A stretch of 47,367 nt of DNA from Acidimicrobiaceae bacterium (GTDB taxonomy: Bacteria > Actinomycetota > Acidimicrobiia > Acidimicrobiales > RAAP-2): positions 1-47,367 of the forward strand of contig PLON01000028.1 in NCBI GenBank assembly GCA_003142095.1, in the 5' to 3' direction. The notes under the pieces are model-generated. The model searched no databases, was not told where the DNA came from, and was given only the letters and a program-made list of their open reading frames with translations. Each line of letters begins with the position of its first letter. Position 1 is the first letter of the stretch. The translations under genes and the position numbers were made by a program. This document shows positions 16,447 through 29,355 of the stretch, in pieces.

Positions 16447-17337
16447 ATGACATTTCGGTTCAAGGCGAGTACGGCTGTCGTAGTAACGATTGCCGCGTCG
16501 TTCGTTCTCTTGTCGACAACGGCCGCGTCGGACAACGGACCTCCGGCGAGTACCGTTCCCATCGCGACGAGTACGACGACCACGACGACGACGACGACCA
16601 CCACGACTCCGCCGATGCACAACCCGGACAATCCCTTCACCAGTCGAGCGACGGCGCTCTACCTAAAGGGACGCGCGGGATTGATCACCGCCGCCGTCTA
16701 TAACGTTGCCACCGGCGCGACGTTCACGTACCACAACGGCTATCACGACCGGACGGCCTCGATTGCCAAGGTCGACATCCTGGCCGACCTGCTGTACGAA
16801 TCTCAACAGAGTGGTCGAGCTCTCACGGCAAAGCAGGAGGCGCTCGCAACGAGCATGATCGAAGCGTCGGACGATAAGGCCGCGACGAAACTGTGGGCGG
16901 AGATTGGTGGCCGCGACGCCATCGATTCGTTCAACGCGCTGATCGGATTCAAATCGACCATACCGAGCTGGTCGTGGGGCGATATCTCAACAACGCCACT
17001 CGATCAGTTGCAGTTGCTCAAGGTCATCGCGTTGCCGAATGGAATTCTCGATACTGCGTCGCGCGAGTACGAAATCGACTTGATGGAGAACGTCATCGGA
17101 GGTCAGCAGGCCGGGCTCGGTTGGGGTTCTCCGGCGCATGCGACCGTCGCCATGAAAGACGGCTGGTACGACGAAATCCCAACCGGGTGGCAAGTGAACA
17201 CGACGGGTTTCGTGCAGTACCAAGGGCGGTTCTACCTCGTGACGATCATGACGGCGAGTGACCCGAATGAGACGTACGGGCTGAACACCGTGACGACGCT
17301 GTCGAGCGATATCTGGAAGTATCTACTGCCGCGATAA
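16447..17337 (+). CDS. Secreted class A beta-lactamase-like serine hydrolase
   Basis: Exported protein of 296 residues: N-terminal signal or anchor segment (about residues 6-27), a linker of twelve consecutive Thr (43-54), then a penicillin-binding/beta-lactamase class A domain. The acylation motif S-x-x-K is Ser105-Ile-Ala-Lys108, the second motif reads Ser141-Asp-Asp, and the third is Lys237-Asp-Gly instead of KTG. I see no clear counterpart of the class A Glu166, so true beta-lactamase activity is doubtful; a peptidoglycan-related hydrolase or a non-enzymatic relative is possible. Its last 15 nt overlap the 3' end of cobQ on the other strand. Confidence 0.8.
   Translation: MTFRFKASTAVVVTIAASFVLLSTTAASDNGPPASTVPIATSTTTTTTTTTTTTPPMHNPDNPFTSRATALYLKGRAGLITAAVYNVATGATFTYHNGYHDRTASIAKVDILADLLYESQQSGRALTAKQEALATSMIEASDDKAATKLWAEIGGRDAIDSFNALIGFKSTIPSWSWGDISTTPLDQLQLLKVIALPNGILDTASREYEIDLMENVIGGQQAGLGWGSPAHATVAMKDGWYDEIPTGWQVNTTGFVQYQGRFYLVTIMTASDPNETYGLNTVTTLSSDIWKYLLPR
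16573..16608 (+). repeat. ACN trinucleotide repeat encoding polythreonine
   Basis: Twelve consecutive Thr codons (ACG, ACC and one ACT) encode a spacer between the signal segment and the hydrolase domain, followed by Pro-Pro. Such Thr/Pro linkers are common in actinobacterial wall proteins. Length changes here would stay in frame. Confidence 0.8.
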
Positions 17338-18816
17338 TCGCATGGTCGGAAGCTCGGTACTTGCGCCACCCAAGAGCGACATCAAAGCGGCCGTGTCGAG
17401 GTGTTCGTCGACGAGGTCGGCCAACGTGTCAAGACGCCCTTCTCGGCGAGTCGCGAAGTTGTGATCAACGTCCGCGACGAAATGTTTGTGAGCTCGTGTT
17501 GCGACTTCCGTCAGATACGCGCGACGCCACCCATCGTTCTCGAAGAGTCCGTGCCACAGTGTTCCCGAAACGGGACCGCGCGCGCATCCTTCGTCGGCGA
17601 AGAAAGCGTCGCCGTCAACGAAGACTCGACCGTGATGGATCTCGTAACCGTGCACGGTTGATCCATCATCCAACGTGGCCTGGACCTGAGTGAGAACTTT
17701 GTCACGTTGAAAAACGGTGCGTGTCGGCAGGAGGCCGAGCCCGTCGACGGAGCCCTTCGCGCTTTCAACCTCATCGTCAATTCGGGTGCCGAGCATTTGA
17801 TATCCGCCGCAGAGACCGAGCACCGAGCCACCGGCCACGACTCGACTTACGAGTGCGTCATCGAAGCCCCGCTCGCGCAACCAGGCGAGGTCATTCACGG
17901 TCGCGCGAGTCCCGGGAATGACTACGAGATCGCAGTCGCGCATCTCTTCAGGTCGATAGAGCGGTCGCAGCACCACGCCCGGCTCGTCGACGAGGGGATC
18001 GAAGTCGGTCAAGTTGGACGCACGCGGCAATGCGATCACGCCCACCGAGAGGACATCCTCGCCACACGGAGCGGTTGCGTCGAGCCACGACGTGAAGTCA
18101 GTCGCGTCCTCGGCGTCAAGTTCGAGACCTCGTCGAAAGGGAAGTACGCCAAAGGTAGGGCGACCGGTGAGATCCGAGAGTTGATCAACGCCTGGTTGAA
18201 GCAGTTCCTTCGATCCACGGAACTTGTTGACGACGAATCCGCGCACGAGATGTTGGTCTTCGGGTGCGAGGACGGCGAGTGTGCCCACAATGGAGGCGAA
18301 CATTCCACCGCGATCGATATCGCCCACGAGGACCGCCGGTACATTCGCGGCGCGCGCGAAGCCGAGATTTGCGATGTCGCTGCGGCGAAGGTTGATCTCC
18401 GCGGGGCTTCCGGCACCCTCGCAAATCACGACGTCGAAACGACGACGTAGTTTGGCGTGCGCCTCGACAACGACCTCCAGCAGATCTCGCTTCTCGTGCC
18501 AGCCCGTCGCGGCGTCGAGGTCGCTAACGGGATGGCCAAGCACGATCATCTGGCTGGTCGAGTCGGAACCGGGCTTTAAGAGCACCGGGTTCATCAGTAC
18601 GTCGGGTTCGACGCCGGCCGCTTGAGCTTGGATGACTTGGGCGCGTCCCATTTCGCCACCGTCTCTCGTGACGTAGGAGTTGAGCGACATGTTCTGCGCC
18701 TTGAACGGTGCAACCGAGACGCCCTGTCGCGCGAGCCATCGACACAACCCGGTGACGACCGTGCTCTTGCCGGCGCCTGACGAGGTCCCGAGGACGAGCA
18801 GCGAACCTGATGTCAC
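17323..18816 (-). CDS. cobQ: Adenosylcobyric acid synthase (glutamine-hydrolysing)
   Basis: Amidates adenosylcobyrinic acid a,c-diamide at four side chains to give cobyric acid. It has 497 residues. The N-terminal ATPase domain has GTSSGAGKST at 10-19 and the AQNMSLNSYVT segment. The C-terminal class I amidotransferase domain has its nucleophile Cys336 in GLCGGYQML and a His in LWHGLFEN at about 422. Last gene of the corrinoid operon; its ATG overlaps the permease stop by 4 nt. It is the only upper-pathway step in the window, so either the ring is made elsewhere in the genome or CobQ repairs partly amidated corrinoids. Confidence 0.97.
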   Translation of the reverse strand: MTSGSLLVLGTSSGAGKSTVVTGLCRWLARQGVSVAPFKAQNMSLNSYVTRDGGEMGRAQVIQAQAAGVEPDVLMNPVLLKPGSDSTSQMIVLGHPVSDLDAATGWHEKRDLLEVVVEAHAKLRRRFDVVICEGAGSPAEINLRRSDIANLGFARAANVPAVLVGDIDRGGMFASIVGTLAVLAPEDQHLVRGFVVNKFRGSKELLQPGVDQLSDLTGRPTFGVLPFRRGLELDAEDATDFTSWLDATAPCGEDVLSVGVIALPRASNLTDFDPLVDEPGVVLRPLYRPEEMRDCDLVVIPGTRATVNDLAWLRERGFDDALVSRVVAGGSVLGLCGGYQMLGTRIDDEVESAKGSVDGLGLLPTRTVFQRDKVLTQVQATLDDGSTVHGYEIHHGRVFVDGDAFFADEGCARGPVSGTLWHGLFENDGWRRAYLTEVATRAHKHFVADVDHNFATRREGRLDTLADLVDEHLDTAALMSLLGGASTELPTMRLSRQ

Positions 18817-20222
18817 AGACTCGCCTCGGCGCGCAGTAGAGCTGCGTCACTACGGGCAATGGCGCGCGCCTCGCCTGCGAGATCGAGGTGACGGGTGCTG
18901 AGGAAGTACACCGTGCCCGCGATGACCAGGCCGATGAGCCAGGAGATGTCGACGCCGCCGAGCCACGTAGCGCCGGGGCTCTGGTAGACGTTGGGAATTA
19001 GCATGAAGGGAATCTCGACGGCGATACCGAGGAGGTAGGCGCTGAGACCTCTGATGCCCCAACGACCGTAGATGCCCGTGGGTGTAAAGAGATCAGTGAT
19101 GGCGAAGCGCCCGTGACGCACGAAGTAAAAGTCAATGAGGTTCACGCTCGTCCACGGAGCGAGCAGATACAGCATCACGATCAGCCAGTCGTTGAGTACC
19201 GTCGTTGCGTTGGTACACGCGAGACCGACGACAAACCAGACCACCGCGAGGCTCACAATGGTGGCGACGCGCACCGTTGAACCCGATCGCACAGGGCGGA
19301 ACGAGTCCATGATGGTGACGATCGAAAGCATGCCGCTGTAGGCGGCGATGCCCATCGCCGCCACCAATGCCGCGACCGCGACTAGCGCGAGAGCCGTCCC
19401 GAGATGCCAGAGAGTGGCGTTCCCTGCGGCGTTGATGCCGCTCAGTGCGTCGGTGACGCGTAGTCGCGTGGCCATCCACGCGCCCAAGGGAATCAGCCAA
19501 ATCGGTGAACCGACGGCACCGAGAAACACGGCCGTCGTGATGTGCCGGCGCGGAGTGTCGCGCGCGAGGTATCTCGAATAGTCCGACACGCACGGCGCGT
19601 AGGTGATGTTGTACGACGCCGCCACAGTGAACATGGCGAAGAAACCGACGGCGTTGAAACCTCCGGTCAGCGGACCGGTACCGCCCGCGTGGCCGAAGAT
19701 AATGCCCCAGGTCACCAGGATCCACAGTGGCAGCGAAACCCAAAAGACGCCGAGGACGACTTTGTGGATCCAGTCGTGGCCGTAGATGGCGAGCGCGGCC
19801 GCGATCACCGTGACGGCGATCGCAACAGCGACGGTATTCCAGTGAAAGACATCAAACAGGCCCTGTTTGATGATGACGAGCGTCACCACGTTAAAGCCGA
19901 CGAAGGTCAACGTCGTGGCGGTGACGGGCACGACCACGCCGGAGTAGCCAAACTGCGCGCGCGACTGAATCATCTGGGGCAGACCCAGCGCGGGACCCTG
20001 CGCCGCGTGCGCGGCCATGAACATGGCCCCGAACAGAATGCCCGCGACGCCGGCGATCGACGTCCAAAGACCGTTCAGACCGACGACGGGTCCGAAGAAG
20101 GCGAGGGCCAACGTGAAGGGTTGAAAGTTGCCGAGGAACCAGAACGGTCCTTGGCGCCACACCCTGCCGTGCCACTCGTCGTCGGGAATGTGGTCGAGGT
20201 GACGACCTTCGATGACGCTCAC
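18813..20222 (-). CDS. NCS1-family permease inside the corrinoid operon
   Basis: Integral membrane transporter of 469 residues with about twelve hydrophobic segments. It resembles the nucleobase-cation-symport-1 family (cytosine, purine, allantoin, hydantoin): the CVSDYSRYLARDTPRR segment after the mid TMs and LIDFYFVRHGRFAITDLFTPTGIYGRW near the end are family-like. The ATG overlaps the cobT stop by 4 nt and its stop overlaps the cobQ start by 4 nt, so it is co-translated with both. NCS1 substrates are flat N-heterocycles, and CobT uses 5,6-dimethylbenzimidazole, a purine-like base. A role in lower-ligand base uptake is my inference; nucleobase or thiamine-precursor transport is the fallback. 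Confidence 0.85.
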   Translation of the reverse strand: MSVIEGRHLDHIPDDEWHGRVWRQGPFWFLGNFQPFTLALAFFGPVVGLNGLWTSIAGVAGILFGAMFMAAHAAQGPALGLPQMIQSRAQFGYSGVVVPVTATTLTFVGFNVVTLVIIKQGLFDVFHWNTVAVAIAVTVIAAALAIYGHDWIHKVVLGVFWVSLPLWILVTWGIIFGHAGGTGPLTGGFNAVGFFAMFTVAASYNITYAPCVSDYSRYLARDTPRRHITTAVFLGAVGSPIWLIPLGAWMATRLRVTDALSGINAAGNATLWHLGTALALVAVAALVAAMGIAAYSGMLSIVTIMDSFRPVRSGSTVRVATIVSLAVVWFVVGLACTNATTVLNDWLIVMLYLLAPWTSVNLIDFYFVRHGRFAITDLFTPTGIYGRWGIRGLSAYLLGIAVEIPFMLIPNVYQSPGATWLGGVDISWLIGLVIAGTVYFLSTRHLDLAGEARAIARSDAALLRAEASL

Positions 20223-21289
20223 TCGGCGTCTCGCTCGCTGACTCCCGCCGAGTCGAACGTGGCCATCTCGCGCAGGACCTTCGCGGCTGCCTGGACAATT
20301 GGAACGGCTAACGCCGCGCCACTGCCTTCGCCGAGACGTAGTCCGAGATCTAACACCGGCGTGAGGTGCAGATATTCGAGACCGGCGCTCGCCGCGGGTT
20401 CGCTTGAGCGGTGCCCCGCGATGAGGTAGTTCGGAACCTCGGGCGAAAAGGCCGACGCCACGACAGCCGCCGCAACGGCAATGACGCCGTCGATGACGAT
20501 GGGCACACGCGCGGCGGCACCCGCGACGATGAATCCGGCCAACGCCGCGATCTCAAGGCCGCCCACTTCGGCGAGGATCGCGAGGGGCGACGCATCGGAA
20601 GAGAGGCGAGCGAGTGCCGTCTCGATAACGCGGGTCTTGACCGCCAGCATGTCGTCGTCAATACCCGTTCCGCGTCCGGTGACGACGCGCGCGCTCGTGT
20701 GAGTGAAGGCTGCGATGAGAGCGGCCGACGGTGTGGTGTTGCCAATGCCCATGTCGCCGGTGACGAGGAGACCGGCGCCTTCTTGGATGGCGCCCCGTGC
20801 GACATCAGCGCCAACGTTGAGTGCCTCCATGGCCTGCGCTTCGCTCATCGCGGGGCCGGTCGCCATGTTCGCGGTACCGGCCGCGACGTTGCGTCGCACG
20901 AGACCGACGGCGTCTCCGGGAACGGGAGTCGCGACTCCGACGTCAACAATGACGACGCGCGCGCCGACGTGTCGAGCGAGGACATTGATCGCGGCGCCAC
21001 CGCCGCAGAAGTTGGCCACCATTTGGGCCGTGATCTCTGACGGCCATGGCGTCACCCCCGCATCGACGACCCCGTGATCACCGGCGAAGACCGCGATGGT
21101 CGCCGGCTCAGGTACGAGGGGTGGACAGACACCGGCGATACCGGCGAGCTGCACACTGAGCGTCTCGAGAAATCCGAGCGACCCTTGCGGTTTGGTGAGT
21201 CGGTCTTGCAGCTCGCGCGCTGACGCTACCGCAGCGACGTCGATCGGCGTGACGCGGTTGGCGAGCTCCGTGAAGGTCTCGTTGTTCAT
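20219..21289 (-). CDS. cobT: Nicotinate-nucleotide:dimethylbenzimidazole phosphoribosyltransferase
   Basis: Makes alpha-ribazole phosphate from a benzimidazole-type base and NaMN, activating the lower ligand. It has 356 residues, the family length. KPQGSLGFLE at 33-42, AGDHGV at 69-74, TGDMGIGNTTPSAAL at 177-191 and the catalytic Glu321 in LGEGSGAAL are all visible. ATGA overlaps link it to cobD upstream and the NCS1 permease downstream. Confidence 0.97.
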   Translation of the reverse strand: MNNETFTELANRVTPIDVAAVASARELQDRLTKPQGSLGFLETLSVQLAGIAGVCPPLVPEPATIAVFAGDHGVVDAGVTPWPSEITAQMVANFCGGGAAINVLARHVGARVVIVDVGVATPVPGDAVGLVRRNVAAGTANMATGPAMSEAQAMEALNVGADVARGAIQEGAGLLVTGDMGIGNTTPSAALIAAFTHTSARVVTGRGTGIDDDMLAVKTRVIETALARLSSDASPLAILAEVGGLEIAALAGFIVAGAAARVPIVIDGVIAVAAAVVASAFSPEVPNYLIAGHRSSEPAASAGLEYLHLTPVLDLGLRLGEGSGAALAVPIVQAAAKVLREMATFDSAGVSERDAE

Positions 21290-22194
21290 TGCTCTCCTTG
21301 GTGATGAGTCGAAGAGCGGATGCTCTCAAGTGCCTCGCCGAGGCGCGTTAATCCGGATTCGTTAGGTACGGCAATGCGCACAACACCATCCAGCCCGAAG
21401 CTGGCGCAGTCGCGCACCACGACGCCCGTGGGCGCCAGGGCTTCGCGTAGCCCCGGTGCGTCGACGAGCAGCCAGTTCGCGTCCGACGGATGGGCGTGCC
21501 AACCGTGAGTCGCCAAAAGGTCGGCGAGCTGCGCACGCAACGCTCGAATGCGCACGGCGTCGTGTTCGAGGTCGAGCGTCGCCAAGAGGTCAGGCAACGC
21601 GTCGGCCGCGAGGCCGTTGAGCGACCATTCGTACTGGCTGGCGCGTAAGTCCGCAATGAACGACGACGTCGCCAGCACGTAGCCGACCCGAAGGCCCGGG
21701 CACGCCAGCACCTTCGTTAACGATCCCACCACCACCGCCTCGGTGTCGCCCCTCGTCCATTGGCCGGTCGCGAGTGGGTAGAACGCCTCGTCCCAAACAA
21801 CAGCTCGATCGTCTTTCGCGGCGAGCAGCCCGCTCGGGCTGTGGGGATTCGATCGCCAGAGCGGTCCGTCGCCACGCGGGTGCAGCGAGAACTCCGGTTC
21901 GACGACGGAACCGCCGAGGCGGGCCGCCACGAGCGCAATGGCCTCGGCGCCACCGTTGGTAAGAAGGAGGCGGTCGGGGTCGACGTTCATGGCGTCAGCC
22001 AGGGCGTCGCGAGCGGTCGAGGGATCGGGGTAGCGACCGAGCGCGTCGAGGTGCGCCGCGACAATCGTTCGCGGATCTACCGCGACGGGGTTGAGCGACT
22101 GCGAAAGATCCAGGATTGAGGCGGGGTCGAGGCCGAGAGCGCGAGCGACTCGCGCTCCGTCGCCACCGTGCCCTTGTGCGGGAGGTACTTTCAT
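21286..22194 (-). CDS. cobD: L-threonine-O-3-phosphate decarboxylase-like aminotransferase (CobD/CobC)
   Basis: PLP enzyme of the class I aminotransferase fold, expected to supply (R)-1-amino-2-propanol phosphate for the nucleotide loop. I start it at the ATG at 22194 (MKVPPAQGHGGDG, 302 residues) because this gives the same 4-nt ATGA overlap with cbiB as most junctions here; an ATG at 22206 is also in frame. HGGDG near the N-terminus, SQSLNPV, TNGGAEAIAL and the PLP lysine at about residue 161 in SLTKVLACPGLRVGY are present. It is somewhat shorter than Salmonella CobD. It could be named cobC in the Pseudomonas scheme. Confidence 0.9.
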   Translation of the reverse strand: MKVPPAQGHGGDGARVARALGLDPASILDLSQSLNPVAVDPRTIVAAHLDALGRYPDPSTARDALADAMNVDPDRLLLTNGGAEAIALVAARLGGSVVEPEFSLHPRGDGPLWRSNPHSPSGLLAAKDDRAVVWDEAFYPLATGQWTRGDTEAVVVGSLTKVLACPGLRVGYVLATSSFIADLRASQYEWSLNGLAADALPDLLATLDLEHDAVRIRALRAQLADLLATHGWHAHPSDANWLLVDAPGLREALAPTGVVVRDCASFGLDGVVRIAVPNESGLTRLGEALESIRSSTHHQGEQ

Positions 22195-23105
22195 CGACGG
22201 CGCCACCAGAGTGCGAGCCCGACGACGCCGAGCGTCGAAGCAAGTGCGTAGGTCACGTCGCGACTCAGTCGGATCGCCTCGTTGATATCCGACGTCCGAG
22301 CGGTGCGACCGAACCCGAGTGGAATTCGATCTTCGATTCGCTCGCCGTATCGGTTGCGGCCTCCAAGCTGAATACCGAGTGCGGCCGCGAACGCGGCTTC
22401 CGCAACGCCGGCGTTTGGCGAAGGGTGCTGAGGTGCTTGGGTTGTGACGGCCTTTCTGATCTCACGCGCCGACGTCACGCGCACCATCGCCACGAGTGCC
22501 GCCGTTACGCGAGCTGGCACCCAATTCGCGACGTCGTCGAGTCGAGCGCTCGGCGCACCGTAGTGCTCGTAGCGAGGTGAGTGGTGTCCAACCATGGCGT
22601 CCATCGTGTTCACCGCTCGGTAGCCGAGCGCACCGGACGCACCGGCGAAGGCCGCCCATAGGGCCGGCGCGACGATGGCGTCGACGGTATTCTCGGCGAC
22701 CGATTCGACGACGGCTCGTGCGATCTCAGATTCGTCGAGGTCACTCGGATCGCGCCCAGCCAGGCTGGGTAAGCGAGAGCGCGCAGTGTCGAGATCGCCA
22801 GTGGCGAGGGCGTCACCGACATCGCTCGCCGCTCGCCACAGCGCTCGGCCGCCCGCGGCGAGACCGGTCGCGAGTGTTGTTGAGCGAAGAGCGCGTCCGG
22901 CCACAACGCCGAGGCTTGTCCCGAGAATCGCGTGCGTCACGCCCGGACCGACACGGTCGACGTAGTTACGACGTTCGAAGTCAGACATGACTCGACCAAA
23001 GTGTGCGACCGGGTGGACGGACGTCGCCGGCTCTTCGAAGAATTGATCGAGGGTGAGTCCTGCTGCAGCGCCCAACGGTCGAGGCACCATCGAACGCCGC
23101 CTCAT
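22191..23105 (-). CDS. cbiB: Adenosylcobinamide-phosphate synthase
   Basis: Membrane enzyme that condenses adenosylcobyric acid with aminopropanol (phosphate). It has 304 residues with several hydrophobic segments. Family blocks are LDQFFEEPATSVHPVAHFGRVM, AVVESVAENTVDAIVAPALWAAFAG, YRAVNTMDAMVGHHSPRYEHYGAPSARLDDVANWVPAR. Called cobD in the Pseudomonas naming. Its start overlaps the cobS stop by 4 nt. Confidence 0.96.
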   Translation of the reverse strand: MRRRSMVPRPLGAAAGLTLDQFFEEPATSVHPVAHFGRVMSDFERRNYVDRVGPGVTHAILGTSLGVVAGRALRSTTLATGLAAGGRALWRAASDVGDALATGDLDTARSRLPSLAGRDPSDLDESEIARAVVESVAENTVDAIVAPALWAAFAGASGALGYRAVNTMDAMVGHHSPRYEHYGAPSARLDDVANWVPARVTAALVAMVRVTSAREIRKAVTTQAPQHPSPNAGVAEAAFAAALGIQLGGRNRYGERIEDRIPLGFGRTARTSDINEAIRLSRDVTYALASTLGVVGLALWWRRR

Positions 23106-23818
23106 CGTGTCGCCAAGATCAAGAGTCCAATGGTCTCGCCGACGACGCCGGCCGCACCGAGAACGTCGCCGGTGTAGCCGCCGAGTCGGTGTCGCGAGAA
23201 TGCGGCGACCACAGCAATGGCGAGCAGTTCAGCGCCTAAGGCGACGAGTCCGTGCAGACCGCGTCCGACCACGACAAGACCGACCGATAGGGCGGCTCCC
23301 GCCACGATGGCGCCGCGTTTGAGTGCGCGTTGGTGACCATTGGTGCCAAGAAACGTTTGCACGAGTCCGGCTGGACGGGCGTAGGGCACGAACTCGGTGA
23401 TCGCGATCATTGAGGTACGTGATGCGCACCACAGACCCGCGACGACGAGGGGTGCGGGACGCAATGACGCGAAGGCGCCCCAGCGCAGAAGGAGAACAGC
23501 ACCCACGGTGATCGCGCCGAATGCGCCAATCGCGGGGTCAGCCATCACTTCGAGACGTCGAGCTCGCGACATCGGAGCGATCAAACCGTCGCCGGCGTCA
23601 GCGAGGCCGTCGAAGTGCAAGAGACCCGTCGCGGCCAGGTCGGCGATCACGGCGACGGCCCCGGCGAGTAGCGCCACCCACGCTTTCGCGGCGAGCCACC
23701 ACACACCACCGACGATGAATCCAATGACCGCACCGACGAGCGGGAACCACGCCAAGGTTGTGGCTGTCGGTGTGTCAGAGACACCGAACGGAGTGAGAAA
23801 CGAGATGGCTCTTCTCAC
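23102..23818 (-). CDS. cobS: Adenosylcobinamide-GDP ribazoletransferase (cobalamin synthase)
   Basis: Membrane enzyme joining adenosylcobinamide-GDP and alpha-ribazole (phosphate) to make adenosylcobalamin (phosphate). It has 238 residues with multiple TMs. The acidic metal-binding signature HFDGLADAGDGL at 68-79 and FGAITVGAVLLLRWGAF are typical. 4-nt overlaps at both ends. Confidence 0.96.
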   Translation of the reverse strand: MRRAISFLTPFGVSDTPTATTLAWFPLVGAVIGFIVGGVWWLAAKAWVALLAGAVAVIADLAATGLLHFDGLADAGDGLIAPMSRARRLEVMADPAIGAFGAITVGAVLLLRWGAFASLRPAPLVVAGLWCASRTSMIAITEFVPYARPAGLVQTFLGTNGHQRALKRGAIVAGAALSVGLVVVGRGLHGLVALGAELLAIAVVAAFSRHRLGGYTGDVLGAAGVVGETIGLLILATR

Positions 23819-24315
23819 TCGTCGCGATCCTTCGCGAGACTGATGACGCGTCCTGCTACGACGAACAGCACGTCATTGCAGACAGTGGCAATGCGTTGAT
23901 TCAGAGTCCCAAGCGCATCGCGAAACTCTCGACCGACTCGCGTTTCGGGATGCACGCTGAGCCCGACTTCGTCTGACACGATGATCGTGTCGCCGTGTCG
24001 CGCGACAATCGCGTCGCAGAGCGCGCCCGCATGCTCACGCCACTCGGTTAGATCGGCGAGCCAGGGTCCGAGCGAATCGACCAACGCCGTTCCCGACGTT
24101 GATCTCAGGAGCGCTGCGAGGTCGTCGCCACATTCAACGGTCGCCCAATCTGAGGGGCGGCGTCGTTGATGTTCGTCCACTCGCGCGGCAAGATCGACGT
24201 CATCGCCGACGCGCACCGTCGCAAGGTATGTCACGGGCGCAGATCCCCGCGACGCGAGACGCTCCGCCACGAGTGACTTGCCCGAACGAGCTCCGCCCAG
24301 GACGAGCGTTTTCAC
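23815..24315 (-). CDS. cobU: Adenosylcobinamide kinase / adenosylcobinamide-phosphate guanylyltransferase
   Basis: Bifunctional enzyme that phosphorylates adenosylcobinamide and transfers GMP to form adenosylcobinamide-GDP. P-loop GGARSGKS lies near residue 7. The conserved YLATVRVGDD, VDEHQRRRPSDWATVEC and VSDEVGLSVHPETRVGREFRDALGTLNQRIA follow. I choose the GTG at 24315 (166 residues) because it gives the GTGA overlap with the cbiZ stop; GTG 24324 is an in-frame alternative. Known as cobP in the aerobic naming. Confidence 0.95.
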   Translation of the reverse strand: MKTLVLGGARSGKSLVAERLASRGSAPVTYLATVRVGDDVDLAARVDEHQRRRPSDWATVECGDDLAALLRSTSGTALVDSLGPWLADLTEWREHAGALCDAIVARHGDTIIVSDEVGLSVHPETRVGREFRDALGTLNQRIATVCNDVLFVVAGRVISLAKDRDE

Positions 24316-24941
24316 GACGACCACGCTCTCGCGCCGGCGAGCACCGAGTCGTGCACGGCGCGAGCGAGACGGGCTCCCCAGAGCGAACGAGGACCGCAGA
24401 AGTCCTGCGCGTCGCCGTCGACGGGACAGAAGATGGCGAGGGCATCACTCGGCGTACCCGTCGCTGAAATCGACGAGTTAAACAACGCTTGGGCTTTTGC
24501 TTCAGTCGCCGTCGCGACCGCGTTGATGAGCGCGCTCTCGCTGAGTCGCGCCGGAAGGAAAGCCACGATGTTGATCGTGCCTACTGCACGAGACGTCTCG
24601 TCCTCAGCGCTCGCGGCCCACGTGGGATGGCTGAGACCGACCGTGGCTTCAACGTCCACGCCGTTGTGACTCGCGCTCTGGCGACGCTGCACGGTTGCGG
24701 CGGTGAACATGCCCACGCCATGTCCTTCCAGATGAAACGTCGAGGCCAATTCGCTGACGTGAGTTCCGAGGTCTTCTCTCAGGTAGTTGGATGGGACCTG
24801 CGCATTCAGAGCCCAGTTCCGTGGACCGAGACCTCCACCCGCGGCGGCGCTCGAAACGCCGAGCAACGTGGTCGCAAAGTGATAGACCAGCGCGTCGAGG
24901 TCAGCGTCGTCCTCGTGACGAGAGGTCAACTCGGCGAACAT
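24312..24941 (-). CDS. cbiZ: Adenosylcobinamide amidohydrolase
   Basis: CbiZ family: cleaves the aminopropanol side chain of adenosylcobinamide-type corrinoids, returning adenosylcobyric acid so that CbiB can rebuild the loop with the cell's own lower ligand. It has 209 residues. Recognised by VGLSHPTWAA, GTINIVAFLPARLSESALINAVATATEAKAQALF and GTPSDALAIFCP. It sits between the adenosyltransferase gene and cobU, the right place for salvage. Its ATG overlaps the cobO TGA (TGATG). Confidence 0.92.
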   Translation of the reverse strand: MFAELTSRHEDDADLDALVYHFATTLLGVSSAAAGGGLGPRNWALNAQVPSNYLREDLGTHVSELASTFHLEGHGVGMFTAATVQRRQSASHNGVDVEATVGLSHPTWAASAEDETSRAVGTINIVAFLPARLSESALINAVATATEAKAQALFNSSISATGTPSDALAIFCPVDGDAQDFCGPRSLWGARLARAVHDSVLAGARAWSS

Positions 24942-25507
24942 CAGTACTCGATACCCTTCTTTGCGCGAATACCTTGCTGGTACGCGTGCTTGATCATGGT
25001 CATCTCGGTGACGGTGTCGGCGAGTTCGATGACCTCAGCGGGTGCGTTACGCCCCGTGACGATGACGTTCGTTTTGGCGGAACGCTGGGTGAGAGCGTTG
25101 ACGACGTCGCTGACTTCGATCCAGCCATAGGAGACGGCGTAGGTGACTTCGTCCAAGATGACGAGGTCGTAGTCACCGCTCGCCAACTTCTCCTTCGCGA
25201 CGTCCCACGCGTGGCGGCCCTTTGCGATCGTCTCATCGAGATCCGTGGACTCCCAGGTGAAGCCGTCGCCCATGGTGTGCCATTCGATCCCGAGGTGTTC
25301 CGCCAGTTTCTTCTCGCCGACTTGCCACTTACCACTCTTGACGAACTGAACGACGACGACTCGCCAGTCGCGGGCCCACGCGCGCCCCATGACGCCGAAA
25401 GCCGACGACGACTTGCCTTTGCCGTCACCCGTGTTGACGATGATGATGGAATCGGCGCGAATGAGTTTCTCGGGTACGGGCGGGACGTCACGCTGGGGCT
25501 CGGGCAT
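24941..25507 (-). CDS. cobO: Cob(I)alamin/corrinoid adenosyltransferase, CobO/CobA type
   Basis: Transfers the 5'-deoxyadenosyl group from ATP to Co(I) corrinoids. It has 188 residues from the ATG at 25507 (MPEPQRDVPPVPEKLIRADS); the frame stays open to 25645, but that part lies inside btuD and is not conserved. P-loop-like NTGDGKGKSSSAFGVMGRA begins at residue 25, then VQFVKSGKW and LVILDEVTYAVSYGW. It overlaps the btuD end by 20 nt. Confidence 0.96.
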   Translation of the reverse strand: MPEPQRDVPPVPEKLIRADSIIIVNTGDGKGKSSSAFGVMGRAWARDWRVVVVQFVKSGKWQVGEKKLAEHLGIEWHTMGDGFTWESTDLDETIAKGRHAWDVAKEKLASGDYDLVILDEVTYAVSYGWIEVSDVVNALTQRSAKTNVIVTGRNAPAEVIELADTVTEMTMIKHAYQQGIRAKKGIEY

Positions 25508-26321
25508 GGGATCCTTTGGGTTTGGTGCGTCGGGGTACGACGATGAGTTCGCCGTCGTCGGTTCGAAGAATCTGTACTCGCGTTCCGAAGTGAAAGTCGA
25601 GAGAGCTCTCTTCGAACACTTCGTCGGCGCTGCCCGTCGCGACAATCTCGCCGCCTGAGAGGAGCGCTAACTCGTCGGCGAACTGTGCGGCGAGGGTCAG
25701 ATCGTGCATCGCGCTGATGACGGTGAGGCCGCGTTCGATGCGAAGCTCGTCCACGAGCTCGAGCGCCTCGACGCGTCGACCCAAGTCCAGTGCGCTCGTC
25801 GGTTCGTCGAGCAGAAGGACAGGTGCCTCTTGGGCTAAAGCGCGCGCGAGGACGAGACGTTGCAACTCACCGCCCGACATAGTCGAGAGGTGTCGTGTAG
25901 CCATCGCACTGAGCGAGAGGCGCTCGAGTAACTCGAGCGAGTGAACGCGGTCACGGGGGCCCTCGGCGCCAAAATATCCGAGATGAGGCAGGCGACCCAG
26001 CGCTACATAGTCGACCGCACGCATTTCTGGTGGAAACTCAGGCTTCTGGGGAACGTACGCGACGAGTTGGGCGAACTCGCGACGGGATAAATCGAGCGTC
26101 GAGCGCCCTTCGACATACACCGCGCCTTCAAAGTCCACGAGCCGGGCGAGCGCTTTCAGCAGAGATGTCTTGCCGGCGCCGTTCGCACCGATGAGACCGA
26201 GCCAACGGCCGCGCTCGACGGAATAGTTGATGCTGTGCAGCGCGGTGGATTCCGCGTAGCGCACGAGAAGATCGCGGAACTCGACAATTGCCCGAGGCGA
26301 TTCGATCTCGCGCGCCGCCAT
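25488..26321 (-). CDS. btuD: Corrinoid (B12/iron-type) ABC transporter ATP-binding protein
   Basis: ATPase of the import system. It has 277 residues from the ATG at 26321. Walker A GANGAGKTS is at 45-53, signature MSGGELQRLVLARAL, Walker B VLLLDEPTSALD and switch His in SAMHDLTLA. The FecE/BtuD type cannot be told from siderophore transporters by motif; the riboswitch and gene context point to corrinoids. It starts 2 nt after the permease stop. Confidence 0.93.
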   Translation of the reverse strand: MAAREIESPRAIVEFRDLLVRYAESTALHSINYSVERGRWLGLIGANGAGKTSLLKALARLVDFEGAVYVEGRSTLDLSRREFAQLVAYVPQKPEFPPEMRAVDYVALGRLPHLGYFGAEGPRDRVHSLELLERLSLSAMATRHLSTMSGGELQRLVLARALAQEAPVLLLDEPTSALDLGRRVEALELVDELRIERGLTVISAMHDLTLAAQFADELALLSGGEIVATGSADEVFEESSLDFHFGTRVQILRTDDGELIVVPRRTKPKGSHARAPA

Positions 26322-26323
26322 CG

Positions 26324-27391
26324 CTACAGGACACCCTGTTGGGCGCGACGCGAGCGCAGCACGAAAATGAAGAAGGGGGCACCGACGAAGGCGGTGACCA
26401 CCCCGAGCGGCACCTCGGCCGGAGATTCGATCGTGTGCGCCGCCAGATCCGCGAGGATGAGAAATGCGGCACCGCCCACGATGGAAACCGGCATCACCAC
26501 TCGATAACTCGCATTGGTGGTGAGGCGAACCATGTGGGGCACAATGATGCCCACAAAACCGACGAGACCGCTCACCGACACCGCCGCAGCGGTACCGAGC
26601 GTCGCGGCGGCGACCACGACTAGTCGCACGCGACGGGTATTGACGCCCAAGCTCGCGGCTTCTTCCTCGCCCAGGCGCAGCACGTCGAGCAGACGACGGT
26701 GCATTAGCAACACGACCGCGCTCACGACGGCGTACGGCAGGATGAGCCATACGTTGGACCAGGTCGCGGCCGCCAGGCTACCGAGGATCCACGAGTACAC
26801 GTTCTGGAGATCGGGGGCGTGCTGTTGTAGGAGCAGCGTTTGCACCGCCGTGAAGAGCGCGGCGACCGCGACTCCCGCCAGCACGACGGAGGTTCCCGAG
26901 GAACGGCCGCCGAACTTGGCGCCCACGACGTACGTCAACGTCACCGCTGCCGCACCGCCGATGAATGCGGCAGCGGGCAACCAGGAGGTCGATCCCGAGC
27001 TCGCCACAATCACGATGGTCGCGCCGAGCCCCGCCCCCGCGGCGATGCCGAGGAGATAGGGGTCGGCCAGCGCGTTGCGAAACACTCCTTGGTAGGAGGC
27101 GCCGCCGGCCGCGAGCATCGCGCCGACGATGCCGCCGAGAATGACGCGCGGCAGACGTATGTCCCACACGATCCCCTGATTGATCGCCGACGCCGACGAG
27201 TGGTAGTGGACGAGCGGAACGTGGGAGAGCAGAATCCCCGCGACCGTCAATATCGAAAGATCCGCGGGTCCAATGGCGGTCGAGACGAGGATGACCACCA
27301 CGAGGCCGAGTCCCGTCACGAGCAGCGGAACGCGAGGCGAGACCGGTGACGTCGCGAGTCGAACTGCTCTCATTCGGCGACCACCGCTCAC
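26324..27391 (-). CDS. btuC: Corrinoid ABC transporter permease, FecCD/BtuC family
   Basis: Type II importer permease of 355 residues with about ten TMs. Family blocks WDIRLPRVILGGIVGAMLAAGGASYQGVFRNALADPYLLG and GLVGFVGIIVPHMVRL are clear; GEEEAASLGVN is the coupling region to the ATPase. It overlaps the btuF stop by 4 nt. One permease gene suggests a homodimeric channel as in BtuCD. Confidence 0.94.
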   Translation of the reverse strand: MSGGRRMRAVRLATSPVSPRVPLLVTGLGLVVVILVSTAIGPADLSILTVAGILLSHVPLVHYHSSASAINQGIVWDIRLPRVILGGIVGAMLAAGGASYQGVFRNALADPYLLGIAAGAGLGATIVIVASSGSTSWLPAAAFIGGAAAVTLTYVVGAKFGGRSSGTSVVLAGVAVAALFTAVQTLLLQQHAPDLQNVYSWILGSLAAATWSNVWLILPYAVVSAVVLLMHRRLLDVLRLGEEEAASLGVNTRRVRLVVVAAATLGTAAAVSVSGLVGFVGIIVPHMVRLTTNASYRVVMPVSIVGGAAFLILADLAAHTIESPAEVPLGVVTAFVGAPFFIFVLRSRRAQQGVL

Positions 27392-28323
27392 GACGTTACC
27401 GGCACGTGCTTGCCTTCGAGTGCGTCAGCGGCGTCTTGCAGCAGTATCGTGATTCGCGGTCCCCAGCGAGAGGCGATGTCGTCATTGAGCGGCACGATGC
27501 GATGATCCTTCACGGCGTTCAGCGCCGACCAGCCAGGTCGGGCGGCGACGGAGGCCGCCGTTGCCTCGCAGCAAATGGTGTCGGCGAGAAAGATGTAGGT
27601 GGGATTCGCCTTCAAGATGAACTCGGCGTTCAATTGCGGATACCCGCCACTTGATGCGAGGCCTTTGGCGCTGTCGGCGATCGAGGCGAGACCCAGAAGT
27701 GAGAAGAGTTTTCCGACGAAGGTTGCCGAGGTCGCAGAGTAGTAGTCCGGCTCGAGTTCGTAGTAATACGTCGTGCCCTTTTTCGCGTGCGGTGCGGTTG
27801 CGACGATGTGGGCGATCTTCGCCTTGATCGACGCGACTTCCTTCTTGGCCTGTGCGACGTGGCCGGTTGCCTTTCCGAGGGGACCGTATTGGGCGTACGC
27901 CTGCGAGAGGTTCGCCGCCGCGGGAGCGTAGAGCACCGGAATCTTGAGCGCGGCCATCTGAGTATTAAAACTGGAGGCGTCAGACGCCACGATGACGAGG
28001 TCCGGGTTATATTTCGCGATCGCCTCGACGTTCGGCTGGTATCCACTCAGCGTCGTTTTCGGTGCGTTCGGCGGATAGTCGGAGTAGCTGTCCACGGCCT
28101 TTACCTGGGGCCCCGCGCCAATGGCGTAGAGCATTTCCGTAGAAGTGGGAGAGAGTGAAACGATGGCGTCGGGACGCGTCTTGAAGGTAAAGGTGCCGTC
28201 GGCCAGTTTGAGGGTCACCGGAAAGCTCGTGGTACTTGATGCTCCTGAGGCACCCGACACGAGTGGTATCGAGAAGCCGCCAAGAACCAAAAGAGCCAAC
28301 AGGCTCTTTGGAAGGGAACGCAT
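27388..28323 (-). CDS. btuF: Corrinoid-binding ABC transporter substrate-binding protein
   Basis: Extracellular solute-binding protein of the BtuF/FhuD class. It has 311 residues: signal peptide about 1-28 (RSLPKSLLALLVLGGFSIPLVSGASG), then RPDAIVSLSPTSTEMLYAIGAG and PNVEAIAKYNPDLVIVASD typical of the fold, and a C-lobe ending LLQDAADALEG. There is no Cys in the signal region, hence no lipobox, which is unusual for a monoderm importer. A Cys-Cys pair (DTICCEATAA) sits in the C-lobe. First gene of the operon, 7 nt after a GGAG site and about 100 nt after the riboswitch core. Confidence 0.92.
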   Translation of the reverse strand: MRSLPKSLLALLVLGGFSIPLVSGASGASSTTSFPVTLKLADGTFTFKTRPDAIVSLSPTSTEMLYAIGAGPQVKAVDSYSDYPPNAPKTTLSGYQPNVEAIAKYNPDLVIVASDASSFNTQMAALKIPVLYAPAAANLSQAYAQYGPLGKATGHVAQAKKEVASIKAKIAHIVATAPHAKKGTTYYYELEPDYYSATSATFVGKLFSLLGLASIADSAKGLASSGGYPQLNAEFILKANPTYIFLADTICCEATAASVAARPGWSALNAVKDHRIVPLNDDIASRWGPRITILLQDAADALEGKHVPVTS

Positions 28324-28324
28324 A

Positions 28325-28510
28325 GTTAATCTCCGTTAGCTAGATCGGAGGAAAACCTTTCCGCCCGCTCCAACGGAGTGGAACGAATCGTCCTTCCACC
28401 GAGGACTGATTACGTCGATGTAGGGAAGGCGACCGGACTCGACCCCAAAAAGGGCATTACCGTTGCGGGACAGCGCCGGGATTTCACCGGACTTCGCTAC
28501 GACTACATCA
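28325..28510 (-). promoter_or_regulatory. Cobalamin riboswitch controlling the corrinoid operon
   Basis: On the minus strand the conserved core CCGGTGAAATCCCGG (28490-28476) and GTCCCGCAACGGTAA (28471-28457) match the cobalamin aptamer. A B12-box-like AGTCCGGTCGCCTTCCC follows at 28439-28423. Closing stem GATGTAG (28509-28503) pairs with CTACATC (28423-28417). Downstream, CTCCG (28350-28346) can pair with CGGAG (28335-28331), which contains the btuF ribosome-binding site, while GGAAA and TTTCC just upstream could form a competing hairpin. This suggests translational OFF control by B12. The core is recognised by eye; a covariance search would settle the class. Confidence 0.88.
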
Positions 28511-28536
28511 CCTCGACGTGGAGTCGAAGTGACTCG

Positions 28537-28542
28537 ATCCTA
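28537..28542 (-). promoter_or_regulatory. Candidate -10 box for the corrinoid operon
   Basis: TAGGAT on the minus strand, about 28 nt before the closing stem of the cobalamin riboswitch, would start transcription near 28530. No good -35 is at the standard distance; TTGACC lies 24 nt upstream, too far. Confidence 0.35.
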
Positions 28543-28598
28543 GTCACGAACGTCGCGACGCGCGAGGGTCAACGCATCGTGGCGCCGGCGCTCCTCGT

Positions 28599-28604
28599 TA
28601 CGCT
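28599..28604 (+). promoter_or_regulatory. -10 box for a leaderless phosphatase transcript
   Basis: TACGCT lies 7 nt before the GTG at 28612. Together with the absence of a Shine-Dalgarno sequence it fits the leaderless pattern at four other genes here, and it supports GTG 28612 over earlier in-frame starts that would run through the riboswitch on the other strand. Confidence 0.45.
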
Positions 28605-28611
28605 GGCTCAA

Positions 28612-29355
28612 GTGACCAATCGACTCGTGCCCTTTGAGGGCGTACTCAACTTTCGTGATCTCGGAGGTTACGAGAGCGAGGACGGACGGCGCACTCGTTG
28701 GGGTCGGCTCTTTCGTAGTGACGCGATGCACGATCTCACCGAGGACGACCTCGTGGTGTTCCGGGGACTCGGTATTGCGGCCGTCGTCGACCTGCGCAGC
28801 GTGTCAGAGGTTGAGCGCACGGGTCGTGGACTGCTCGCCCTGGAAGCGCAGAAGTTCGTAAACGTTCCGGTCCTGTCGAATTACGAGATCCATGAGCCTC
28901 GTGAAATCGCCTTCGACGAGGATTATCTGTCGCGCCGATATCTGCAGTACCTCGACGTTGGCGCACCGGCTTTCGTGCGCGTGATCGAGGAGATGACGAT
29001 CGCCGATAACTATCCGCTGGTCTTTAACTGCTTTTTGGGCAAGGACCGAACCGGCGTCCTCGCGGCCCTCGTACTCAGTTGCCTGGGCGTCGAGCGCTTG
29101 ACCGTCGTCGAGGATTACGCCCTCACTGACGCCCGGGTGGCCTTTATTGTGGAGAAACTTCGCCGTGATCCCGTCCAGAGCGACACGATCGACCAGACCG
29201 ATCCGGTGTTGCTCGCTGCCCGCGAAGCGACGATGACGAGCTTTCTCGCCGAAGTCGACGAACGCTTTGGGGGACCCGTCGCCTGGGCTCGCCGTGCGGG
29301 CGTCTCGAGTGACAGCATCGAACGCCTTCACGATCTTCTCCTTGATGAGGGGTAA
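28612..29355 (+). CDS. Tyrosine/serine protein phosphatase, PtpB-like
   Basis: Dual-specificity-type phosphatase of 247 residues from GTG 28612 (VTNRLVPFEGVLNFRDLGGY). The signature loop is Cys140-Phe-Leu-Gly-Lys-Asp-Arg146 (NCFLGKDRTG), the CX5R active site with the GKDRTG form typical of the family; the usual His before Cys is Asn. NFRDLGGY and RWGRLFRSDAMHDLTEDD are also family hallmarks. The frame is open upstream to 28378, but that part opposes the cobalamin riboswitch and is not conserved-looking. It is divergent from btuF; no functional link to corrinoids is evident. Confidence 0.88.
   Translation: MTNRLVPFEGVLNFRDLGGYESEDGRRTRWGRLFRSDAMHDLTEDDLVVFRGLGIAAVVDLRSVSEVERTGRGLLALEAQKFVNVPVLSNYEIHEPREIAFDEDYLSRRYLQYLDVGAPAFVRVIEEMTIADNYPLVFNCFLGKDRTGVLAALVLSCLGVERLTVVEDYALTDARVAFIVEKLRRDPVQSDTIDQTDPVLLAAREATMTSFLAEVDERFGGPVAWARRAGVSSDSIERLHDLLLDEG

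Follow-up and report, generated by a model that had tools for sequence, protein, structure and literature searches.

The window analysed here, the whole 47,367-nucleotide stretch of contig PLON01000028.1 from an Acidimicrobiaceae bacterium (GCA_003142095.1), holds a corrinoid operon of 12 genes on its minus strand, in the order btuF-btuC-btuD-cobA-cbiZ-cobU-cobS-cbiB-cobD-cobT-NCS1-cobQ when read from a candidate riboswitch, and it is the 11th of these, a permease of the NCS1 fold, that we propose as an importer of the lower-ligand base used by CobT. The permease gene lies at 18813–20222 on the minus strand, starts with GTG and encodes 469 amino acids; this strand is open in translation whereas the plus strand over the same interval is closed by several stops. 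An earlier note on this DNA had given the coordinates and the 469 residues exactly and had left the strand unstated. It had also described 4-nt overlaps of the permease gene with both of its neighbours, and these are indeed present, each formed by a GTGA motif on the minus strand, at 20219–20222 (cobT stop and permease start) and at 18813–18816 (permease stop and cobQ start).

In two other species the permease gene likewise directly follows cobT (genome G116, locus L124, and genome G125, locus L129, the window belonging to G000), the encoded proteins being 72% and 63% identical to that of the window. The overlap between cobT and the permease gene is kept in all three of these cob-linked species, and because the same GTGA recurs in the two others, the adjacency goes beyond chance. 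The overlap of the permease gene with cobQ is common to G000 and G125 (L129), and cobQ was not found on the G116 contig. Ratios of nonsynonymous to synonymous substitution (dN/dS) among the three cob-linked permease genes were 0.17–0.26, indicating purifying selection.

Membership of an NCS1-like family, which had been suggested from the letters alone, is borne out by the Pfam model Transp_cyt_pur (PF02133), matched over residues 12–431 at 97.7 bits against a gathering cut-off of 23.5, and by a predicted structure (predicted local distance difference test, pLDDT, 91.6; predicted TM-score, pTM, 0.90) whose closest folds in the PDB are those of Mhp1 and CodB, with TM-scores of 0.69–0.73 by query length. 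In a PDB search a profile of 30 rows matched Mhp1 at 55.7 bits, and one of only four rows gave zero matches. The permease thus shares its fold with the hydantoin symporter Mhp1 of the NCS1 family (2jln, 4d1a, 2x79) and with the cytosine transporter CodB (7qoa), but it is only 15–17% identical to them and none of the operon's 12 genes is a hydantoin or cytosine gene. Homology to the curated models is weak and far under their cut-offs, with 63 bits for the NCS1 symporter model TIGR00800 (cut-off 353.1) and 35.8 bits for CytX (TIGR02358, cut-off 309.85), a predicted hydroxymethylpyrimidine (HMP) transporter.

At the head of the operon, at 28382–28514 on the minus strand, the adenosylcobalamin (AdoCbl) riboswitch model RF01482 was matched over its full length at 47.9 bits (E 9.3e-7), narrowly missing the Rfam gathering score of 50, and it was absent from the output of a default Rfam scan. 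The same model was found before btuF in seven relatives at 42.1–45.9 bits (G040, G086, G117, G139, G114, G137 and G142), and in G091 and G096 it was RF00174 that passed its gathering threshold. As regards the riboswitch-controlled operon of 12 genes described in the earlier note, the gene count therefore stands, and control by the riboswitch is what this sub-threshold match would suggest.

No match to BluB, the synthase of 5,6-dimethylbenzimidazole (DMB), exceeded the cut-off in the source genome (96% complete), the best scoring 40 bits against 150, which extends to the whole genome the absence of bluB already pointed out for the window. BluB was also not detected over the cut-off in any of the three genomes with a cobT-linked permease, as had been anticipated. 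Throughout, absence of BluB means that no TIGR02476 match scored over 150 bits and, within the genus, that none was found at E 1e-20; weaker matches of 74–95 bits to this model occur in the class. CbiC was not found in any of the 23 genus genomes searched, the source genome included, with controls positive in 7 of 14. Members of the CbiZ family are associated with nucleotide-loop removal and rebuilding, and with CbiZ present and CbiC not detected, the cell is, as judged from its gene content, one that salvages corrinoids. The neighbouring CobT is, by its profile match and its solved relatives, a full DMB-type phosphoribosyltransferase.

Matches to the permease of at least 49% identity, here called type A, were obtained among 150 family genomes in G116 (73%), G123 (71% and 51%), G125 (64%), G062, G138, G084 and G102 (55–56%), G091 (51%) and G092 (49%), the next matches being at 33–34%. 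A scan of the genome collection yielded 19 relatives: two are cob-linked (the G116 and G125 contigs), 13 have a ureohydrolase gene on the same locus, one has just a SnoaL-like gene with an amidase gene, and three have none of those genes. Next to the non-cob relatives lie genes for a ureohydrolase of the agmatinase type (308 bits, cut-off 302), an amidase, a SnoaL-like protein and a cyclase (Pfam) with weak likeness to arylformamidase. In a tree of 56 NCS1 proteins (at least 380 residues and no internal stops; 5 of 61 omitted as duplicate, partial or run-on reading frames) the three cob-linked permeases form one clade (100/99), which is joined to the ureohydrolase-linked proteins of L123 and L125 (100/97) inside the non-cob relatives. 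A single clade of cob-linked proteins had been foreseen and was recovered; it is not an isolated one, and because it is nested among mostly ureohydrolase-linked NCS1 proteins, the finding that had been named as speaking against the idea was in part made. Of the traits of the ureohydrolase-linked clade, the cob-linked permeases show the nesting but neither the adjacent ureohydrolase nor the aspartate in transmembrane helix 3 (TM3). An ortholog of that ureohydrolase (at least 60% identity) was present in all eight genus genomes with a non-cob relative (G062, G138, G084, G102, G123, G091, G092 and G165) and was not found in G000, G116 and G125, which carry only a paralog of 40–43% identity common to most genomes searched; it also occurs in G142, G121 and G107, none of which gave a type A match of at least 49%.

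The group of NCS1, SnoaL-like, amidase and ureohydrolase genes, often with the cyclase gene, is itself a conserved cluster (L083:9311-14279, L125, L130, L131, L133, L134, L136 and L141) that probably serves the breakdown of some nitrogen compound. Near-identical proteins in the same NCS1 neighbourhood were seen in G123 (L088, G123:C60) and G091 (L086, G091:C51), which may mean mixed bins.

The substrate pocket of Mhp1 was mapped onto the permease through the 30-row profile alignment, in which Mhp1 W117, Q121, W220, N314 and N318 correspond to F110, T114, N205, A293 and G297 of the window protein, so that none of these five residues is kept. The codon of T114 lies at 19881–19883 on the minus strand. 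At this position, that of Mhp1 Q121, aspartate is found in 16 of the 17 non-cob relatives (15 of the 17 having a ureohydrolase nearby) and glutamine in one, and the three cob-linked proteins have T, T and I; the residue aligned with N314 is N or G among the non-cob relatives and A, S and S in the cob-linked proteins. The comparison with Mhp1 that had been proposed thus revealed a changed residue in the cob-linked permeases. A second and distantly related NCS1 lineage found near cob operons of the genus, B2, is altered at the same two positions relative to the widespread genus lineage B1 (28 B1 rows among the B-type matches being compared): G in B1 becomes A in six of six B2 proteins at the Q121 position, and D becomes V in seven of seven at the N314 position. 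A glutamate in the TM1 region (window position 36) is present in all 28 B1 rows and replaced by alanine in six of six B2 rows. Two of six Mhp1 pocket positions (the set taken from the available part of PMC13390362) were group-specific in type A (p 0.007–0.012), and the same two in B2 (p 0.028–0.037). From these residues we infer that the pocket changed from charged to neutral, which would go with a neutral cargo.

The genus sample comprised 99 genomes, 17 of them with CobT. The BluB state was known from the family search for 15 of the 17, and G114, whose contig has the operon but no cobT, was added on the strength of its cob operon; G165 and G167 have cobT but lay outside the BluB search and enter no BluB count, and G123, with BluB at a contig end and CobT not found, enters no count. 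In G091, G137 and G142 the gene immediately upstream of the riboswitch and btuF is bluB, which in G096, G107, G121 and G124 stands directly before cobT. The last four genomes (L105–L108) have a second, divergent type of cob operon, whose CobT is 40–45% identical to that of the window. B2 lies upstream of the riboswitch and btuF in G040, G086, G117, G139 and G114, and about 9 kb beyond cobQ in G145 and G091. Being only 23–26% identical to the window permease, it belongs to a distantly related lineage, and the idea that the NCS1 protein near btuF in G040 and G086 is the same protein was discarded on this ground. The idea that all B-type NCS1 proteins are cob-linked was discarded as well: B-type matches occur in 93 of the 99 genomes of the genus, but proximity to cob genes was seen for the B2 paralog alone. 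B2 (at least 60% identity to that of G040) was found in seven of the 99, in every case no more than about 10 kb from the cob operon. The widespread B1 lies, at L116:4933-9992, beside a family-5 solute-binding protein and a major facilitator superfamily (MFS) protein, an arrangement also recognised by eye at L118, L100 and L101.

The slot between a tyrosine-phosphatase gene and the riboswitch holds bluB in G137 and G142 and B2 in G040, G086, G117 and G139; the phosphatase gene bounds the far side of the slot in six of the eight genomes with bluB (3) or B2 (5) upstream of the riboswitch, and it was not found on the loci of G091, G114, G145, G096, G107, G121 and G124. In the window the slot is empty, the phosphatase gene abutting the riboswitch. 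Overall, a cob-linked NCS1 gene was present in all nine operon genomes without detected BluB (three of type A and six of B2) versus one of the seven with BluB (Fisher p 0.0009, or 0.0023 without G114 and G145, both values ignoring kinship).

The comparative evidence supports, short of proof, the import of a lower-ligand base, most likely DMB or a near benzimidazole, by the permease for this corrinoid-remodelling operon, and we put the probability of this reading at roughly one half. The supply of a base to CobT had been the suggestion of the earlier note; for a benzimidazole it is partly supported by the clade, the lack of detected BluB and the residue change. Adenine, the other base suggested there, is an unlikely cargo because cells make it themselves. 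A broader proposal, that this one genus recruited each of two distantly related NCS1 lineages as a dedicated importer of the free base in place of BluB at the salvage operon, is tentative and somewhat less probable. In the proposed mechanism, low B12 would leave the riboswitch open and the operon expressed, and B12 would shut off synthesis through the riboswitch. BtuFCD would take in corrinoids, and CbiZ would remove the old nucleotide loop, which CobA, CobD, CbiB, CobU, CobS and CobQ would then rebuild. For this CobT would need a supply of free base, BluB not being detected, and the permease, translationally coupled to CobT, would import DMB or a near benzimidazole, probably by ion-coupled symport through an alternating-access fold like that of Mhp1 and CodB; CobT would then activate the imported base and CobS would join the activated base. 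The permease may have been recruited once, with loss of the acidic pocket residue, from an NCS1 lineage serving a ureohydrolase (guanidino-compound) pathway.

Several observations weigh against base import. The tree of cob genes yields three independent pairs, two opposite and one without difference (sign test p 0.5), and BluB and B2 are both present in G091. The BluB calls come from draft genomes (G125 being 86% and G139 82% complete), and the upstream end of the operon is off the contigs of G116, G125 and G145, of which G145 is a weak case as its contig ends at cobS and its bluB slot is not seen. B2 is located upstream of the riboswitch (five genomes) or about 9 kb past cobQ (two), and is therefore not seen under riboswitch control. 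Over the whole protein the overlap of positions specific to A and to B2 is weak (p 0.03–0.35 depending on threshold), for which reason convergence along its full length was rejected, and position 293 is group-specific in type A only at looser thresholds. DMB is a small molecule that may diffuse across membranes unaided. Outside the genus, CobT was found in 114 of 395 class genomes (E 1e-10, 17 of the matches being below the curated cut-off) and BluB over its cut-off in 26, all among these 114. Of the 85 non-genus genomes with CobT and without BluB over the cut-off, 80 were searched for NCS1 (G470, G477, G493, G497 and G517 being omitted), and a match (E 1e-8) was obtained in five, never on the cobT contig; because the remaining 75 show none, the base would seem obtainable without NCS1. 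A general pairing of BluB absence with NCS1 thus does not hold, no generality beyond the genus having been found in these 80 genomes, and the link between cobT and NCS1 is so far confined to one genus.

Among the rival explanations the best placed, although in itself unlikely, is that the permease carries some other molecule of loop assembly, such as nicotinate or nicotinamide riboside, or expels bases or loop fragments freed by CbiZ. A yeast NCS1 protein carries nicotinamide riboside, and a permease beside cobT with cbiZ in the same operon would suit such a role, but the pattern of BluB or NCS1 in the genus is best explained by base supply, and the bluB-bearing operons of G091, G137 and G142 have cbiZ and no NCS1 gene between cobT and cobQ. 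More doubtful is the view that the permease still transports what its parent clade does, a guanidino compound or a related nitrogen compound, and lies in the cob operon by accident. Its nesting among relatives mostly beside a ureohydrolase would fit, as would MetT, an NCS1 metformin transporter with close homologs that cluster with metformin hydrolase (PMC13390362), itself a member of the ureohydrolase superfamily (PMC11271267), both sources being available in part; yet the partner ureohydrolase was not found in any of the three genomes, the conserved pocket aspartate is lost and the position after cobT is kept across divergent species. Import of alpha-ribazole, the nucleoside of DMB, or of the lower ligand in another nucleoside form, the role proposed for CblT in Firmicutes, has a lower probability still: some NCS1 members do carry nucleosides, but the operon's cobT makes the phosphorylated form from the free base and no CblS-like kinase is among the 12 genes, CblS not having been searched genome-wide. 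Marine dissolved organic matter is nevertheless reported to contain a mass formula that matches alpha-ribazole, and a bacterium is reported to take alpha-ribazole up (available part of PMC9296465). Least probable is genomic hitch-hiking, in which a small number of inherited and functionally meaningless events would have exchanged bluB, B2 and type A in the vicinity of btuF and cobT. In its favour, these events are a handful, the sign test is not significant and 75 of the 80 non-genus genomes with CobT and without BluB over the cut-off show no NCS1 match; against it, two distantly related lineages have reached the same operon and type A has tight GTGA overlaps and low dN/dS.

Base import can also be set against known systems. 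CblT is an ECF-type (energy-coupling factor) transporter with an S-component fold, working with the CblS kinase; it is nucleoside-specific, unlike the permease, which has the NCS1 fold and lies beside cobT. In both cases a cell that makes no lower ligand itself would be supplied with one from outside, alpha-ribazole salvage by CblT and CblS in Firmicutes and the action of CbiZ having been described (PMC6461909, PMC8123684; literature sources in this paragraph were available in part). Like BluB, the NCS1 proteins are found with the same operon and, in the case of B2, in the same slot (bluB in three genomes and B2 in five), and are proposed to provide the base for CobT; BluB makes this base from flavin, whereas the permease would import it. 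A change of cargo within the fold has a precedent in MetT of Aminobacter, an NCS1 protein that carries metformin (PMC13390362), and the comparison, made by description, extends to the clustering of MetT homologs with an enzyme of the ureohydrolase superfamily, as in the parent clade of the permease; it differs in that the cargo of MetT is a cation and the cob-linked permeases have lost the pocket aspartate and the ureohydrolase. In a literature search, with most subscription journals outside its coverage, none of the titles or abstract openings concerned a transporter of free DMB; in their available parts, one review names only cblTS for DMB uptake (PMC8123684) and another source names no DMB importer (PMC10468695). 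In one survey 42% of predicted cobamide producers were without a known gene for making benzimidazole or attaching phenol (PMC6461909). Many bacteria rebuild B12 without BluB, and a dedicated importer would explain part of the base supply. If base import is true, the permease would be, to our knowledge, the first known transporter for a free lower-ligand base; it would also mark lower-ligand cross-feeding and allow substrate switching of transporters to be studied along a documented route by which a charged pocket (aspartate in TM3 or in TM8) became neutral.

The remaining genes of the operon, all on the minus strand, were assigned as follows. The corrinoid importer consists of a btuF-like binding protein (27388–28323; Peripla_BP_2 116 bits, NCBIfam BtuF 74 bits, below the cut-off of 234), the permease btuC (26324–27391; Pfam FecCD 294 bits) and the ATPase btuD (25488–26750), for which the NCBIfam corrinoid ABC ATPase model gave 208 bits over residues 155–394, below the cut-off of 537; the longest reading frame of btuD encodes 420 amino acids with the domain beginning near residue 155, which probably puts the actual start near 26327. 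The adenosyltransferase cobA/cobO (24941–25645) passed the cut-off of NF004637 (232.7 bits against 185), its domain starting at residue 63 of the longest reading frame. It is followed by the adenosylcobinamide amidohydrolase cbiZ (24312–24941; Pfam CbiZ 160 bits), which takes off the old nucleotide loop, the kinase-guanylyltransferase cobU/cobP (23815–24324; Pfam CobU 155.6 bits) and the cobalamin synthase cobS (23102–23818), which fell below its cut-off (TIGR00317, 102.7 bits against 110). The adenosylcobinamide-phosphate synthase cbiB (22191–23105) passed at 179 bits (TIGR00380, cut-off 165.9), and the cobD/cobC-like threonine-phosphate decarboxylase (21286–22206) scored 153.5 bits with TIGR01140, below the cut-off of 290.55. 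On either side of the NCS1 gene, cobT, the nicotinate mononucleotide (NaMN):DMB phosphoribosyltransferase (20219–21289; TIGR03160, 410 bits), and cobQ, the cobyric acid synthase (17323–18816; NF001989, 592 bits), passed their cut-offs of 319.3 and 273.

The operon (17323–28514) lies within a plus-strand block of ribosomal-protein and translation genes covering 122–33591 of the window, an odd site for a vitamin operon, and because it is embedded in this block, a stray contaminating contig is argued against. One flank carries EF-G, EF-Tu, ribosomal proteins L3, L2 and S3, SecY, adenylate kinase and an M24 peptidase; the other has the tyrosine-phosphatase gene, divergent from the operon and adjoining the riboswitch (28378–29355, plus strand; Pfam Y_phosphatase3 198.5 bits, domain from residue 85), and then ribosomal proteins S13, S11 and S4 and the alpha subunit of RNA polymerase. 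At another locus (L192:3918-4086) a Vibrio RNA AS7 match of 47.7 bits against a gathering score of 90 is probably due to chance. In the window, a Beta-lactamase2-like gene (16447–17337, plus strand) converges with cobQ and overlaps its end.

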